Shown: piece after piece, positions 1-16,454 of the stretch | Numbering within the stretch: the stretch's first letter is position 1 | Layout of the letters: every line of letters starts with the position of its first letter | Origin: Parvibaculum sp. | Lineage (GTDB): Bacteria > Pseudomonadota > Alphaproteobacteria > Parvibaculales > Parvibaculaceae | DNA: 64,000 bases | Assembly: GCF_030694575.1 (NCBI RefSeq) | Contig: NZ_JAUYUS010000016.1 | Coordinates: forward strand, 40,510 to 104,509 | Direction of reading: 5' to 3' | Notes under the pieces: model-generated | The model's input: only the letters and a program-made list of their open reading frames with translations | Databases searched by the model: none | What the model was told of the DNA's origin: nothing | Position numbers and translations under genes: made by a program

Positions 1-246
1 GACCTCCAAAAGACGATGGAGTTCTGGTTCCGAAAGAAGTTCAACCTGGCTCCGACTGACCCTCGATTCCTCGACATGACGACTGAGCAGCTAGTCGTCG
101 AGTTCTGGGCTTGGTCATACGACGCAAACCCGAACATCTCCGAGGAATACGAAGACGAGGATTTCGACATTGAGGAGGTAAAGCGGAGGATGGAGGAGAA
201 TCCGGACGATTGGTCGGACGTTCCCGCTGCTGACCAAGAGTCGTGA
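1..246 (+). CDS. Small phage protein before the tape measure gene (5' end outside window)
   Basis: The frame is open to the left window edge, and the first ATG at 16 has no convincing ribosome binding site, so this is probably the C-terminal part of a longer protein. The visible part is very acidic near its end (EEYEDEDFDIEE) and has aromatic-rich stretches such as EFWFRKKF and EFWAWSYD. It ends 32 bases before the tape measure gene. That is where contractile and siphophage genomes place tail assembly chaperones, often made through a frameshift. The chaperone role is inferred from position only, since no family motif is recognised. Confidence 0.6.
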   Translation, partial: DLQKTMEFWFRKKFNLAPTDPRFLDMTTEQLVVEFWAWSYDANPNISEEYEDEDFDIEEVKRRMEENPDDWSDVPAADQES

Positions 247-278
247 CTTGAGAATTACGTCGATCACCCGGAGCGGGA

Positions 279-5812: not shown

Positions 5813-5907
5813 GAGGCGGTTTCTCCGATTAATGTTCCATATTCCGTTGTCCCTGCCAAGTGATTGCCGCTCGGTGGCGATTGGGGTCGTGATCGCATAC
5901 TGAGAAA

Positions 5908-7044
5908 ATGGCTCCAACGTCACAAAAAGCAGGGGATCGGCCGATCTCCTTCCTCCTTTCCGATGGTTACACCGGGAAGCTGACGAGCGTTGAGATGGTG
6001 ATACGGCCCGAGGATTTGACGAGGATCGAGCCCTCGCGGCTTTCCGTGACGCAGACTCTCGGCGGGGCGTGGGCGGATGGCTTCGGCCCCGGCATTTCAA
6101 CCATCAGCATTTCCGGTCACACCGGCTGGCGCGGCGGGCTCGGGGCGGATGGCGCGGCCTCCTTCGCGAAGCTGCGGGACATCGTTTTCGTCGAGTGGCA
6201 CCGCCTTCGGGAACAGGCCAAGGAAGTTGGGCAGGATCCCGACGTCGTGAAACTGATTTTTTCAGACGCTCTCGACAATATCGTTAACGTCGTCGCGCCG
6301 GGACAAATGGTTCTGAAGAGGAACCGAAATCGTCCCCTCCTGATGATGTATCAGATTCCGTTGACGGTTCTCGCCGACCGCCTCGACGATGAAACGCGTG
6401 ATGCTATCGGACTAGGCGCCGGCGCCGACGATCTCGGCCTTGACAGTCTCGCGGACAGCCTTGCTCGGCTTGAGGAGTATGCGGCGTCCGTGCGCGACTT
6501 CATTGATGCCAACCTGATCGGCCCTGTGACGGAGTTCATGAACCTCGCCAATACGGCGATCGCGCGCGCGATGGATGCAATCTCGACCTCGAAGGGCATC
6601 ATCAGCGCTCAGGCAAACCAGTTTATTGCCTTCGCCTCGGATATAGCGGCGGTTGGCCGCAATGCGTTCAATATGTACAACGCCGTCGTCAACATGCCTG
6701 ACTATCTCCGGTTTCAGGTGTCGCGGGTGTCGAGCGCGTTTTCGAACGTGTTCTGCGTCTTCCAGAACGTCTTTCGCAGGACGCGTCTCTACCCCGACTA
6801 TTCCGACGTCTACGGGGCCTCGAACTGCTCGTCCACGAGCGGTGGTTCGCCGCTGAGCCCGCTCCGCTTCGGCAATACGTTCGACCAAATCACAAGCGAC
6901 TTTTCGTCACCGGTATCGGTTTCCGCTGAAGCATCGGCGGACATCATCTGGCTGAAGAAATCTGACCCTGTCCTGTTTCCATCGACGGTGAGTGACATTG
7001 GATCGCGCCTTCGGTCGATCGGAAGCGGAGTGTCGTTCACATGA
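5908..7044 (+). CDS. Tail/baseplate structural protein of unassigned family
   Basis: A 378-residue protein between the moron and the wedge gene. The first 150 residues are beta-rich, with an ISGHTGWR segment and a following aromatic/basic region (EWHRLREQAKEVG). Residues 170-290 are mostly helical, and the C-terminus is Ser/Gly-rich. Position between spike and gp25-like genes suggests a baseplate adaptor or a Mu gpN-like protein. It overlaps the next gene through ATGA. I did not recognise a named family with confidence. Confidence 0.6.
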   Translation: MAPTSQKAGDRPISFLLSDGYTGKLTSVEMVIRPEDLTRIEPSRLSVTQTLGGAWADGFGPGISTISISGHTGWRGGLGADGAASFAKLRDIVFVEWHRLREQAKEVGQDPDVVKLIFSDALDNIVNVVAPGQMVLKRNRNRPLLMMYQIPLTVLADRLDDETRDAIGLGAGADDLGLDSLADSLARLEEYAASVRDFIDANLIGPVTEFMNLANTAIARAMDAISTSKGIISAQANQFIAFASDIAAVGRNAFNMYNAVVNMPDYLRFQVSRVSSAFSNVFCVFQNVFRRTRLYPDYSDVYGASNCSSTSGGSPLSPLRFGNTFDQITSDFSSPVSVSAEASADIIWLKKSDPVLFPSTVSDIGSRLRSIGSGVSFT

Positions 7045-9930: not shown

Positions 9931-9956
9931 CCTTCTGACCGTGTCGTGACGGGATA

Positions 9957-9979
9957 CTTCGGGTGGTACATATCCGAGG
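9957..9979 (+). promoter_or_regulatory. Hairpin masking the ribosome binding site of the next tail gene (copy 1)
   Basis: Positions 9957-9979 can fold as CTTCGGGT - GGTACAT - ATCCGAGG, an 8-bp stem with two G-U pairs and a 7-nt loop. The 3' arm contains the GAGG of the ribosome binding site, six bases before ATG 9986. It is preceded by a conserved stretch ending in GACGGGATA. A second copy with identical geometry and compensatory base changes lies at 13506-13528. Confidence 0.65.
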
Positions 9980-9985
9980 ATTCCG

Positions 9986-10441
9986 ATGCACAACCCATTT
10001 CGGTTTGAAGACTATTCGAGGGCACCGAACGGTCTGTTTTCACTCGACGTCTTCCGTCACGGAAAGCTCATTGAGCATTTCGAGGACAAGAACCTGATCG
10101 TTAACGGCAGCAAGGCCGTAAACGCGCGGTTGATCGGTGGTGACGTTACGAACCGCAGCATCACGCAGATTGGGTTCGGGACGAGCGGCACCGCACCGGC
10201 GGGCGGAAACACTGTGCTCACGAGCGCCTACACCAAGGCTGTCGACGCCGTGACGTATCCCGTCGAGGGAACCGTCCAGTTCGCGTTCTCTCTCGGCACT
10301 GGCGAGGCGAACGGCAAGGCAATTCTGGAATTCGGCCTCTTCACCGCCGCCGGCACGCTTTACGCGCGCAAGGTGCGCTCCGCTGCTCTCAATAAAGAGA
10401 GCGACATCAGCCTGCTTGGCACTTGGCAGATAACCTTCTGA
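9986..10441 (+). CDS. Small tail protein between gpI-like gene and tail fibre
   Basis: 151 residues, beta-rich, with ITQIGFGTSGTAPAGGNTVL and EFGLFTAAGTLYAR. Proteins with this sort of sequence often lie between the gpI gene and the first fibre gene of contractile-tail phages and are thought to be fibre connectors or part of the fibre base. The role is inferred. Translation should depend on the hairpin that covers its GAGG site. The end of this gene carries the ribosome binding site for the fibre gene (TGAGGATTGGTG). Confidence 0.6.
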   Translation: MHNPFRFEDYSRAPNGLFSLDVFRHGKLIEHFEDKNLIVNGSKAVNARLIGGDVTNRSITQIGFGTSGTAPAGGNTVLTSAYTKAVDAVTYPVEGTVQFAFSLGTGEANGKAILEFGLFTAAGTLYARKVRSAALNKESDISLLGTWQITF

Positions 10442-10450
10442 GGATTGGTG

Positions 10451-11899
10451 ATGGCTAACCAGCCTGAAGAAGCAGTATACGCCGCCGGCGTATTCCAGCT
10501 TGAGACGTCGACGTTGGCGCTCGGCGGAGTCGGTGGCCCGGCGAATACGCCGCTGCTCAACCTCGCCAACCGCACCGCTTACCTCAAGTCGCACATGGAT
10601 GCGCTTGAAGCGGGAACAGTTATTCCACCAACCGTAGCTCCCCTCAACTCTCCCGCCCTTACCGGTACGCCGACCGCCCCAACGGCAGCGATAGGCACCA
10701 ACACGGACCAGATCGCGACAATGGCCGCGTTGAAAGCTGCGGCCGACGCGCTGCTAGACGCCGCCCCAGGCACTCTGGACACGCTTAAAAAATTGGCGTC
10801 TGCCATTGCCGATGATCCGAACTTTGCCACGACGATGGCAACCGCGCTGGCTGGAAAGCTGGGAAAGAGCGGGGACACAATGACGGGGGCGCTCGTGATC
10901 GCCCTCTCAGCACTGCAGTTGACCTTGCGGAACAGCAACAACACGGCGGATTCAGTAGTCGAACATACGCGGTTTCTGCGCGGCAGCGGTGCCGGCGTCA
11001 GGGCGGCGCTTCGGTCTGTGCGGGGTGCGACAAACGCGGTTGGAGACGTTTATCTGACGTTCCTTTCGGCGGCCGATGCAGTGCTTCAGCAATACACATT
11101 TGGAGCGGACGGCAAGCTGCTTCTCCCGACCGATCCCACCGCAGCGCTCGGTGCGGCGACCAAGCAGTATGTCGACGCGACGGTCATAACGCAGATCGTC
11201 AGCGGCTACCGAAACCTCAAGATCGTGTCGGCGGATGGCGGCACGTCGAGCATCATCACCTGTGCCGCGATCACGCTTGAGGGGGCAGGGGGGGTCGGAA
11301 AGCGGTTCGATTCTGTGAATAAGACCCTCAACCTGGCGAATTCCGGCGACGGCGGTATCGACACTGGCTCTGTGGCTTCTGGCAATTGGTATTATGAGTG
11401 GATCATCGGTAAGGCTGACGGGACCGTCGACGTGCTGGGGTCACTGTCGTCGACCGCGCCGACCATGCCATCCGGCTACACTTACAAGGCCTATGTCGGG
11501 GCTGTTCTGACGAAGAGCGGATCGGCGGTTCTGGTCGGGTCGATCCACTACGGCAATATGGGATATCGCACCGCGACGCCGCTGCCAAAGATGATTTCGG
11601 GGTCGAGCGGGAATGTATCGACCGGACCAAGAATGGCGGTGGCTGTGGCGGATTATGTTCCGCCTACTGCAAGCCATATCCTCGGCATCGTTAACGGCGG
11701 CGGGGGTATCACGTTGGTGGCGCCCAACAACACATACGGCGCCTATAACTCCACGACCAATGCCGCTCCAGCAAAGGAAGAAACCGATACCAGCGGGCAG
11801 TTCTGCCTTGCCCTCGAAAGTTCCAACATCTACTACGCTTCGAGCGGGGATAGCAGGGCTGGTCTCTATGCAACGGGTTGGAGAGACAATAACCTCTGA
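10451..11899 (+). CDS. Tail fibre protein (fibre 1)
   Basis: 482 residues. The track starts at TTG 10445, but ATG 10451 has GAGG seven bases upstream and gives the same start (MANQPEEAVY) as fibre 2. Residues 1-65 are the baseplate-attachment part shared with fibre 2 (PLLNLANRTAYLK). Then come PTAPTAAIG-type repeats typical of fibre shafts and a Gly/Ser-rich C-terminal region (STTNAAPAKEETDTSGQFCL) likely to be the receptor-binding part. A terminator follows. No chaperone gene is evident next to it. Confidence 0.82.
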   Translation: MANQPEEAVYAAGVFQLETSTLALGGVGGPANTPLLNLANRTAYLKSHMDALEAGTVIPPTVAPLNSPALTGTPTAPTAAIGTNTDQIATMAALKAAADALLDAAPGTLDTLKKLASAIADDPNFATTMATALAGKLGKSGDTMTGALVIALSALQLTLRNSNNTADSVVEHTRFLRGSGAGVRAALRSVRGATNAVGDVYLTFLSAADAVLQQYTFGADGKLLLPTDPTAALGAATKQYVDATVITQIVSGYRNLKIVSADGGTSSIITCAAITLEGAGGVGKRFDSVNKTLNLANSGDGGIDTGSVASGNWYYEWIIGKADGTVDVLGSLSSTAPTMPSGYTYKAYVGAVLTKSGSAVLVGSIHYGNMGYRTATPLPKMISGSSGNVSTGPRMAVAVADYVPPTASHILGIVNGGGGITLVAPNNTYGAYNSTTNAAPAKEETDTSGQFCLALESSNIYYASSGDSRAGLYATGWRDNNL

Positions 11900-11926
11900 A
11901 CGGCGGCTTGACGGCGGCCATCCCTG

Positions 11927-11945
11927 ACGCCACTGTGGCGTTTTT
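11927..11945 (+). terminator. Rho-independent terminator after fibre 1
   Basis: ACGCCAC-T-GTGGCGT, a perfect 7-base palindrome, is followed by a run of five T. It separates the baseplate/fibre operon from the hydroxylase gene, which starts 15 bases later. Confidence 0.75.
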
Positions 11946-11959
11946 GCGGGGGTGCCGTC

Positions 11960-12694
11960 GTGCGGATCAACTATCAGCGCCTGTTCGACATGGGGAGTGA
12001 GCATGCGGGAGCCTTCAGGACCGCATCGCCCTTCCCGAGCGTCTGTCTCGACGGGCTTTTCGAGCCGTCCGAGTACGAAGTGATCGCCAGTTGCTTCCCG
12101 GACCCAACGAGCGATGTCTGGAAGAAGCCCGAGAACATCCATACCAAGGGAAAGTACGTCACTCGCCGCGGCGATGACGATTTGAAAGAGCTTCTGTTCG
12201 ACGATGCCGCGCGGCAGGTTCTCGCGGAACTGAACAGCGGGCCTTTCCTCCGCTTTCTGGAGCTGCTGACCGGCATCAAGGGCCTCATCGGAGACCCATA
12301 CCTGGCTGAGGGCGGCTTTCATTGTAGTGAGGATGGCGGCTATCTCGACATCCACGCGGATTTCAGCCATCACGACGCGCTCGGGCTGGAGCGGCGGCTT
12401 AACCTGATCATCTATCTGAACGAGGGCTGGTTGCCAGAGTATGGCGGCGCGCTCTCTCTCTACGACCTCGACCTGAATCCGGTCGCCAGTTTCTTGCCGG
12501 TGGCGAACCGGGCCGCGATCTTCGAGACCAGTGATACCAGCTATCACGGGCACCCGGAACCGATGAAGCTGCCCGCCGGGGTATACCGGCGGTCGATTGC
12601 GCTCTACTACTACTCGCTCCCAACCGGGCGTGAGAAGTCGAGGATCGTATTCCCGAAAGACCGCGCCTTCTCGCACCAAACGACGGAGGCCTAA
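11960..12694 (+). CDS. 2-oxoglutarate/Fe(II)-dependent dioxygenase (prolyl 4-hydroxylase-like)
   Basis: 244 residues with the elements of the 2OG-Fe(II) oxygenase superfamily. The iron ligands are in HADF (His-x-Asp, about residue 131) and the distal His in TSYHGHPEPM. The 2OG-binding Arg is probably in YRRSIALYYY. RRLNLIIYLNEGW and PEYGGALSLYD flank the metal site as in prolyl hydroxylases. Start is GTG after a GGGGG stretch. It lies between two tail-fibre genes and four bases before a methyltransferase gene, so the two probably act together, on fibre protein or on a surface glycan. The substrate is unknown. Confidence 0.82.
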   Translation: MRINYQRLFDMGSEHAGAFRTASPFPSVCLDGLFEPSEYEVIASCFPDPTSDVWKKPENIHTKGKYVTRRGDDDLKELLFDDAARQVLAELNSGPFLRFLELLTGIKGLIGDPYLAEGGFHCSEDGGYLDIHADFSHHDALGLERRLNLIIYLNEGWLPEYGGALSLYDLDLNPVASFLPVANRAAIFETSDTSYHGHPEPMKLPAGVYRRSIALYYYSLPTGREKSRIVFPKDRAFSHQTTEA

Positions 12695-12697
12695 GAG

Positions 12698-13462
12698 ATG
12701 AGCGATCGCGCGGCCTATTCCAACCAGAACGACGCCGAGGACGCGGCTCAGGGCCTTCTTGAAGCTATCGCCAGGTCGGACCTCCTGCCCGCCGGCGAGT
12801 TGCTGAGAAACATCGGACTATTCCTTCGGCAGAAGGATCTGGCTCATATCCTTTTCATGGCCGACCTCTACCGGCGTATCGTCGACGTGCCCGGATACAT
12901 CGCGGAGTTCGGGGTCATGTGGGGCCGCAACCTCTCGCTGCTGATGGCGATGCGCGAATGCTTCGAGCCCTACAATCACACCCGGAAGATCGTCGGTTTC
13001 GATACTTTCGCGGGGTTCGTTGGCACGACGACGGAAGATCACGGCGACAAGCCTAAAGAGGGGATGCACGGCGCGGGCGATTACGGCGTAGCGGCCGGTT
13101 ACGAGAAGACGCTGGCCGACATCCTGAGCGCCCACCAGAACACCGCTCACCTGGCACACGTCAAAAAGTTCGAGATTGTAAAGGGCGACGTGACCGAGAC
13201 CCTGCCGCGCTGGATGAAGAACAACCCGCATGCGGTGTTCGCCTTCTGCTACCTCGATCTCGACCTTTATGAGCCGACAAAGGCGGTGCTGCAGCAGGTC
13301 AAGGGGCGGCTCGTCAAGGGCTCGGTTCTCGCTTTCGACGAGGTTCTGAACCCGAGCTATCCAGGTGAAACGGTGGCGCTTGATGAAATGTTCGGCATTC
13401 CCAACATGCGCCTGCTGAGAACGCCGTTGAGCGGATGGAAGACGTTCTGGGTCGTTGAGTAA
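12698..13462 (+). CDS. SAM-dependent methyltransferase, TylF/MycF-like
   Basis: 254 residues. The segment YIAEFGVMWGRNLSLL is the SAM-binding first motif and VGFDTFAGF the second. FCYLDLDLYEPT carries the Asp pair that binds Mg2+ in TylF/MycF macrocin O-methyltransferases, and FDEVLNPSYPGE fits the later acidic motif. Members of this family usually methylate sugar hydroxyls. The gene follows the dioxygenase by four bases and precedes fibre 2, suggesting a modification cassette carried with the fibre locus. The actual acceptor cannot be told from sequence. Confidence 0.8.
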   Translation: MSDRAAYSNQNDAEDAAQGLLEAIARSDLLPAGELLRNIGLFLRQKDLAHILFMADLYRRIVDVPGYIAEFGVMWGRNLSLLMAMRECFEPYNHTRKIVGFDTFAGFVGTTTEDHGDKPKEGMHGAGDYGVAAGYEKTLADILSAHQNTAHLAHVKKFEIVKGDVTETLPRWMKNNPHAVFAFCYLDLDLYEPTKAVLQQVKGRLVKGSVLAFDEVLNPSYPGETVALDEMFGIPNMRLLRTPLSGWKTFWVVE

Positions 13463-13505
13463 CCATCAACTCTCAACCACCGCGCAGCATCGTCGTGACG
13501 GGATA

Positions 13506-13528
13506 CTTCGACTCTTAGCAAGTCGAGG
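13506..13528 (+). promoter_or_regulatory. Hairpin masking the ribosome binding site of fibre 2 (copy 2)
   Basis: Positions 13506-13528 fold as CTTCGACT - CTTAGCA - AGTCGAGG, 8 bp with a 7-nt loop. GAGG in the 3' arm is the ribosome binding site, six bases before GTG 13535. The preceding GTCGTGACGGGATA is identical to that before copy 1. Confidence 0.65.
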
Positions 13529-13534
13529 AATGCC

Positions 13535-14881
13535 GTGGCTAACCAGCCTGAAGAAGCAGTATATGACGAGGGCGTCTACCAGATCGAGATTACCGATCCG
13601 GTGCAGGGCGCGCTTGGCGGTCTTGACAACAAGCCGCTCCTGAATCTCGCCAACCGGACGGCATGGCTGAAGCAGCACGTCGATGCGCTGGAATCCGGCT
13701 CAAATATTCCCGTTACCTACGCGCCTATCAACTCCCCCTCGTTCACGGGCTCCCCCGCTGCCCCGACGCCGCCCGTCGGCGATGACACGACGAAAATCCC
13801 GACCACGGCGTTTGTGCAGACGGCCGTTGGGGGCATGGTGACGGTCGACGTTAGCGGCAATTCCAACGTGACGCTGACGGCCGCGAAATGGGGCGCCTCA
13901 ACGATCATCCTGATCGGCGCGCAAACGGGGAACTTGAATGTCGTATTCCCGACCCGCGGCGACCGTTGGCTGGTTGTCAACGCCACGACGGGAACCGGAA
14001 CGATAACCTGTAAAACTGCGGCTGGGTCCGGCGTCCAGGTCGTGCGTGGGATGTCGGCTCCGATATTCTGCGACGCCGTCAACGCCTATTTCGAGCGAAC
14101 GGATTTCACGAACGTCGCGCTGACGGGAGTCCCGACCGCGCCGACCGCGCCGGACGCTACCGACACCGATCAGATCGCGTCGACTAAATACGTCCAGAAC
14201 ACCTACCGGACGTTCGCGCCGATTGACTCTCCGACGTTTACCGGCGTGCCGGCTGGCCCGACGCCGGCGGCCGGCGACAAATCCACGAAGTTCGCGACCA
14301 CGGCGTTCGTGCAGGATACGGCGCCTCCGGTCGGCGGCATCATCATGTATTCAGGGCTGATCGCCGACATTCCGCTGCCGTGGCGGCTGTGCGATGGCAC
14401 CAATGGAACTCCGGACCTGCGCGATAAGTTCATCGTCGGCGCACGCTCCGACCATGACGGCACGGCAAAAACAAACATCACCGGGGCGCTCACCAAGTCC
14501 GGAGGATCTGTCTCCGGCGTGACGGCTGGGGGCGGCGAGCATAATCATGCTGGGTTCACCGGATCGCACGTCCTCACATTGAATGAGATGCCTAGCCACA
14601 GGCACCTTCAATATTCAAGCGTCACGGCAACCAGCTCAAATTCTCTCGGCCTTGCTGCGGGCAATGCTCCGGCCTTCGCGGCAACGCTCGGGTTCGACAA
14701 CAATGGCTATTTTACGGTATCGCGGTCTGATGCTGGAGAGCCAACCATTGGCCGAACTTCACCCAGCGGCGGGGCCGATGCACATAATCACTCAATCGCG
14801 GCCGCTGGTACTCACACCCACACCATCCCGAGCGTTCTGCCGCCATACGTCGCGCTCGCCTTCATCATGAGAACCGCATAG
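13535..14881 (+). CDS. Tail fibre / tail collar domain protein (fibre 2)
   Basis: 448 residues starting at GTG. The first 65 residues match fibre 1 closely (MANQPEEAVY, PLLNLANRTAWLK). Then there are at least three copies of a FTGxPxxPT...TTAFVQ module. A phage collar domain follows, with GGIIMYSGLIADIPLPWRLCDG and PDLRDKFIVGA, and a His-rich C-terminal section (HNHAGFTGSH, AHNHSIAAAGTHTHTIP), which in related fibres binds iron. The DNA at the start is nearly identical to that of fibre 1 over about 28 bases. Translation is probably affected by the hairpin upstream. Confidence 0.85.
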   Translation: MANQPEEAVYDEGVYQIEITDPVQGALGGLDNKPLLNLANRTAWLKQHVDALESGSNIPVTYAPINSPSFTGSPAAPTPPVGDDTTKIPTTAFVQTAVGGMVTVDVSGNSNVTLTAAKWGASTIILIGAQTGNLNVVFPTRGDRWLVVNATTGTGTITCKTAAGSGVQVVRGMSAPIFCDAVNAYFERTDFTNVALTGVPTAPTAPDATDTDQIASTKYVQNTYRTFAPIDSPTFTGVPAGPTPAAGDKSTKFATTAFVQDTAPPVGGIIMYSGLIADIPLPWRLCDGTNGTPDLRDKFIVGARSDHDGTAKTNITGALTKSGGSVSGVTAGGGEHNHAGFTGSHVLTLNEMPSHRHLQYSSVTATSSNSLGLAAGNAPAFAATLGFDNNGYFTVSRSDAGEPTIGRTSPSGGADAHNHSIAAAGTHTHTIPSVLPPYVALAFIMRTA

Positions 14882-16356: not shown

Positions 16357-16454
16357 ACTGGCGCTGCTAACTGAATCACTTCCGATCTGGTCGTGATGCA
16401 ACGCTGCATCATGATCAGAATCTCGCTGGACCATATTCAGAAGGCACTGGCGTC

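Follow-up and report, generated by a model that had tools for sequence, protein, structure and literature searches.

A probable late promoter within Shine-Dalgarno-masking hairpins of a Parvibaculum prophage and related phages

We analysed a 64,000-nt stretch of Parvibaculum sp. DNA (contig NZ_JAUYUS010000016.1, positions 40,510 to 104,509; hereafter the window). The sites preceding its genes at 9986 and 13535 are probably phage late promoters located inside hairpins that mask the Shine-Dalgarno (SD) sequence, forming a read-through lock as in phage T4. The putative promoter comprises GTCGTGAY at -22 to -15, A at -11 and T at -7, and its -10/spacer region would double as the 5′ arm of the hairpin. 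RNA arriving from upstream genes would hold both arms, with the SD masked; RNA from the gene's own promoter would start at the first loop base, lack the 5′ arm and leave the SD free. The fibre genes would be silent on read-through RNA and active on RNA of the proximal promoter.

Leaders of genes 9986 and 13535

A 19-base block, GTCGTGACGGGATACTTCG, had been described in both leaders by the sequence-only reading. We found it at 9943-9961 and 13492-13510 and, with up to three mismatches, nowhere else in the window (0.01 expected). The features of the two leaders and their genes are as follows.

9943..9958, + strand: promoter copy 1, with the GTCGTGAC box at 9943-9950 (inferred -22..-15), N3 and the -10 element ATACT at 9954-9958 (A = -11, T = -7)
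9957..9979, + strand: hairpin 1, CTTCGGGT-GGTACAT-ATCCGAGG; 5′ arm 9957-9964 (-8..-1), loop 9965-9971, 3′ arm 9972-9979
9976..9979, + strand: SD GAGG of gene 9986, inside the 3′ arm of hairpin 1
9986..10441, + strand: phrog_5417 protein of 151 aa, function unknown; ATG start, directly before tail fibre 10451
10451..11899, + strand: tail fibre 1, N-terminal paralogue of fibre 13535, downstream of 9986 in the same unit
13492..13507, + strand: promoter copy 2, with GTCGTGAC at 13492-13499, N3 and ATACT at 13503-13507
13506..13528, + strand: hairpin 2, CTTCGACT-CTTAGCA-AGTCGAGG; 5′ arm 13506-13513 (-8..-1), loop 13514-13520, 3′ arm 13521-13528
13525..13528, + strand: SD GAGG of fibre gene 13535, inside the 3′ arm of hairpin 2
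13535..14881, + strand: tail fibre 2, 448 aa, GTG start

Both hairpins are 23 nt long, with 8 pairs, a 7-nt loop and GAGG within the 3′ arm, and the start codon follows 6 nt on, in agreement with the geometry reported earlier. The two stem differences between the copies (G-C in place of A-U, G-U in place of C-G) are indeed compensatory. Below stem 1 we observed additional pairing of CGGGAT with ATTCCG, and below stem 2 of CGGGATA with AATGCCG, mismatches included; neither had been noticed before. The fold and the promoter are a single device, in which the -10 element, with its last bases, and the spacer to +1 supply the 5′ arm of the hairpin. Comparison of the stem with shuffled sequences gave p = 0.075 for copy 1 and p = 0.005 for copy 2. 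A single copy is thus weak evidence for the stem, and the clade-wide data described below make it strong.

Of the two genes labelled earlier as tail genes, 13535 encodes a tail fibre, and 9986 is the phrog_5417 gene that adjoins the paralogous fibre 10451. Between both fibre genes (window 11960-13462) lie genes for a 2OG-Fe(II) oxygenase and a TylF-like methyltransferase, resembling inserted cargo.

The promoter motif across the phage clade and the predicted start site

The pattern GTCGTGAY-N3-A-NNN-T occurs about 7-15 times per genome and nearly always lies on the late strand. It is found in ~95-kb myoviruses of one clade, whose hosts are alpha-, beta- and gammaproteobacteria and which includes Dolphis, Jeremy, PHB04, fHe-Yen8-01, ST4, Touem01 and phiT5282EW. 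The prophage contig of the Parvibaculum genome holds 10 copies and each near-complete IMG/VR relative 11-15; the seven named phages have 7-13, and a Rhodovastum plasmid-prophage has 14. Clade records gave 8-14 hits each, with lower numbers in partial contigs and fHe-Yen8-01. The reversed control pattern gave 0 matches in every phage and plasmid record counted. In Dolphis, full-pattern copies precede late genes, among them those for the portal, capsid protease and baseplate, and the early region has none. The second option of the sequence-only reading, that the common block is a promoter element, is therefore borne out by its recurrence along related phages, mostly on the late strand.

As the exact 16-mer matched in viral contigs only without hairpin or leader context, relatives were sought by protein-led searches. 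IMG/VR relatives of protein 9986 carry GTCGTGAC in the same place, ~40 nt before the start codon, and the remaining leader differs. A bacterial -10 element is contacted chiefly through its A(-11) and T(-7). When late-strand GTCGTGAY boxes were collected unconditioned, A(-11) was present in 85% and T(-7) in 83%; both occurred together at 167 of 209 late-strand sites vs. 6 of 36 on the opposite strand. A DNA similarity search against phage records gave no match. A literature search that covered a minority of subscription journals turned up no paper in which the GTCGTGAC motif occurs alongside phage and promoter, and promoters are not mentioned in the Mecenats66 and Touem01 papers. Morganella phage Mecenats66 (L125-L129) is without the exact motif and carries a diverged form, ATCGTGATgggATAATgcagATG, before its homologue of Dolphis ORF 14320.

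Further promoter copies in the window are the following.

240..255, + strand: SD-led promoter before ORF 279; hairpin absent
5886..5901, + strand: leaderless-type promoter of a tail-tube-initiator-like gene, ATG at 5908, 6 nt after the -10 T
16390..16405, + strand: promoter before the 15-codon ORF 16411 and the DUF5675 gene 16455; hairpin absent

The 15-codon ORF 16411, MIRISLDHIQKALAS, overlaps the start of the DUF5675 gene and is a possible leader peptide.

The start site was deduced from genes that appear to lack a leader. An ATG lies close behind the -10 T at 81 of 186 distinct sites, and over all sites the gap is 6 nt at 58 and 7 nt at 17 (75 together). Apparent leaderless late mRNAs were noted at window site 5886-5908 and, in 16 genomes, at 78 sites; the start codon follows the -10 T by 6-7 nt at nearly all of them. 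The N-termini encoded there are orthologous across phages of alpha-, beta- and gammaproteobacterial hosts (e.g., SQKA..RPISF). In the simplest reading, the mRNA would be leaderless with the A of this ATG as +1, which is just as far from the -10 element as a start site should be. With +1 at SD-led sites set by the ATG position of these sister genes, transcription in the window would begin at 9965 and 13514, so that both 5′ arms end at -1 and both loops begin at +1. The predicted +1 of copy 2 is C, and the real start may therefore be a few bases off.

Predicted masking on read-through RNA and pairing across leaders

Since the 5′ arm ends at -1, the hairpin would form only on RNA begun further upstream. 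The predicted SD accessibility was 0.00 on read-through RNA for both copies, and on proximal RNA it rose to 0.59 (copy 1) and 0.65 (copy 2). Across 54 leaders, read-through RNA had a value of 0.27; shuffling only the arm raised it to 0.34 (p=0.003), and the proximal form reached 0.41 (p=0.0004). With the SD masked on the one transcript and free on the other, the gene would be translated mainly from its own promoter. Read-through is to be expected, as 12 and 29 nt separate the ends of the upstream genes from the motifs, and a + strand terminator scan from these gene ends to the hairpins listed no terminator-like site. After fibre 1, at window 11926-11945, stands an inverted repeat resembling a terminator (ACGCCA-CTG-TGGCGT, with T's behind it) that is not in the scan list.

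Alternatively, the inverted repeats could themselves end upstream transcription, as terminators with the promoter in their first arm. Stems followed by 5-7 T in Dolphis (28081), fHe-Yen8-01 (30137), phiT5282EW, ST4 and PHB04 speak for this, and such U-run stems may simply stop upstream RNA. In the window, ATTCCG and AATGCC come after the stems and a U-run is missing, and we consider termination unlikely as the general explanation; it probably applies to a subset of sites. In Dolphis (28081), fHe-Yen8-01 (30137), ST4 and phiT5282EW the promoter-bearing, terminator-like hairpin with its U-run stands directly before the start codon.

It could also be argued that the hairpins are fortuitous and that the common block serves only as a late promoter, given that conservation of the motif is strong whether a hairpin is present or not and that some SD-led sites have none. 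Results of the pairing analyses already disfavour this explanation, which we regard as improbable. In shuffles of 70 SD-led leaders that kept the promoter fixed, the stem reached p<=0.05 in 27 (3.5 expected) and p<=0.01 in 18. As a stricter control, we performed a swap test in which the 5′ segment of one leader was paired with the 3′ segment of another. Among 105 non-leaderless sites, the stretch from -10 to +1 was complementary to downstream sequence, typically the SD, with an own-vs.-swapped z of 12.7. The 30 leaders of the 9986 gene family gave z = 6.7 and the remaining 75 gave z = 10.3, which extends the proposed selection for the fold far past the two copies on which it was first based. 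The leaderless control class showed a small pairing excess too (z = 3.9), and some of its sites may be misclassified. Sliding the 5′ arm window placed the arms precisely at -10..+2, with z = 10.7 at -10..-1 and 11.1 at -7..+2, falling to -0.1 at -1..+8. Besides the compensatory changes in the window pair, orthologous leaders keep the same topology with other letters (CTCCATT/AATGGAG, CTCCAGT/ACTGGAG, CTCCGGT/ACCGGAG, GCCTCC/GGAGGC and CCTCCGT/ACGGAGG).

The slide test bears also on whether the hairpin works as an RNA switch or a protein operator within the mRNA of the gene itself. The position of the SD, within the 3′ arm in both copies, speaks for this. The 5′ arm, however, lies upstream of the predicted start, and at +3..+11, where both arms would be within the proximal transcript, pairing is depleted (z = -2.6). 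No arm or loop sequence is common across sites; a conserved loop or stem sequence, as of an RNA operator, was not found between them, since the loops and most arm letters differ. Action in the gene's own mRNA is accordingly as improbable as incidental pairing, and the RNA-binding protein suggested by the sequence-only reading is unlikely at hairpins whose arms and loops vary from site to site. Palindromic DNA operators bound by a dimeric repressor over the start site would suit dyads that overlap -10 and +1, but arm sequences unlike at every site leave no one protein able to read all of them, and G-U pairs exceed the swapped baseline (9 vs. 3.5) while A-C pairs do not (5 vs. 4.7; few cases), which makes this explanation very hard to credit. 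The G-U excess modestly favours pairing at the RNA level, on the transcribed strand.

Comparison of the leaders in relatives, as had been proposed, showed that covarying stems recur, and also that the stem is absent at the 9986 orthologue in some of them. The hairpin is missing there in three genomes (G040, G042, G043), and in four relatives (L186, L205, L208, L221) the orthologue is leaderless instead. As the stem is not universal, we regard the read-through lock as a recurrent, re-evolved device and not as one conserved element. It is not obligatory either, since several SD-led sites, window 240 and 16390 included, are without a hairpin. Its variability at the 9986 orthologue, together with the four leaderless relatives, suggests that the two devices are interchangeable. 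Leaderless sites may reach the same end, as ribosomes should seldom start at an internal AUG of a long RNA when no SD precedes it.

Relation to known systems and candidate regulators

In T4 genes e, soc, 49, I-TevI and segB and in mobE of Aeromonas phage Aeh1, transcripts from upstream fold so that the SD is hidden, and transcripts from a late promoter placed within the 5′ side of the fold lack the structure and are translated (PMC3014915, PMC2988022). The window sites resemble these cases in that the SD is predicted to be sequestered on upstream-initiated RNA (accessibility 0.00 in both copies) and the promoter occupies the 5′ strand, the 5′ arm being made up of the spacer (-6..-1) and the two final bases of the -10 element. 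For proximal transcripts, the 75 sites with an ATG gap of 6-7 nt suggest a start within the hairpin, downstream of the 5′ arm. Unlike in T4, the phage clade is an unrelated one, the promoter is GTCGTGAY-N3-ANNNT and not TATAAATA, and the device occurs at dozens of sites mixed with leaderless promoters. The consensus thus departs from the T4 late promoter, defined by the TATAAATA -10 element and a gp55-type sigma factor, and no Sigma70_r2 or Sigma70_r4 profile match was obtained in ten clade records. With a different promoter and clade and no sigma-70 domain family found, the sites would work like the T4 cases and are not one of them.

Within the clade, the predicted leaderless late mRNAs use the same promoter, and there too the gene would be usable mainly on its own promoter's transcript, with the start codon at +1 in place of the SD and hairpin. 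Stems with a U-run, as in intrinsic terminators, stand at the same place in some members, while the window copies lack the U-run. No curated Rfam family scored above its gathering threshold, and the two sub-threshold chance matches lay away from the hairpins. The best explanation of these sequence patterns is that a lock evolved in a clade unrelated to T4, with its own late promoter. The principle of the read-through lock is known; the promoter, the clade and the scale appear to be new.

Two adjacent Cys-rich, zinc-finger-like proteins are present in all compared phages (Dolphis 66689-67213 and 67210-67578; 174 and 122 aa), without a Pfam or PHROG match. The homologue of the 174-aa protein in the prophage is encoded on another contig (G000 C135:7399-7917), ~1.2 kb from a further promoter copy. 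These proteins are candidate late regulators. The AlphaFold model of the conserved 174-aa protein was too poor for use (pLDDT 43), and phylogenetic profiling did not discriminate, as Mecenats66 has both Cys-rich proteins but only the diverged motif. A PF00940 search for a phage-specific RNA polymerase gave no match, and neither did its control, hence it was uninformative.

More tentatively, and with chances we would put somewhat short of even, late genes of the whole clade may follow one rule, being translated only from their own promoter's transcript. Leaderless starts, SD-locking hairpins and promoter-containing terminators would be its forms, all built on one promoter type served by host RNA polymerase and a phage activator, perhaps the Cys-rich proteins.

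With this analysis, a large group of tailed phages that has received little study gains a concrete late promoter, and cultured members such as Pseudomonas putida phage Dolphis are open to direct testing. Leaderless late mRNAs are predicted at ~40% of the distinct promoter sites, and the hairpins lend independent support to the predicted start sites. The covariation suggests that a device known from a few T4-like genes has evolved repeatedly elsewhere.
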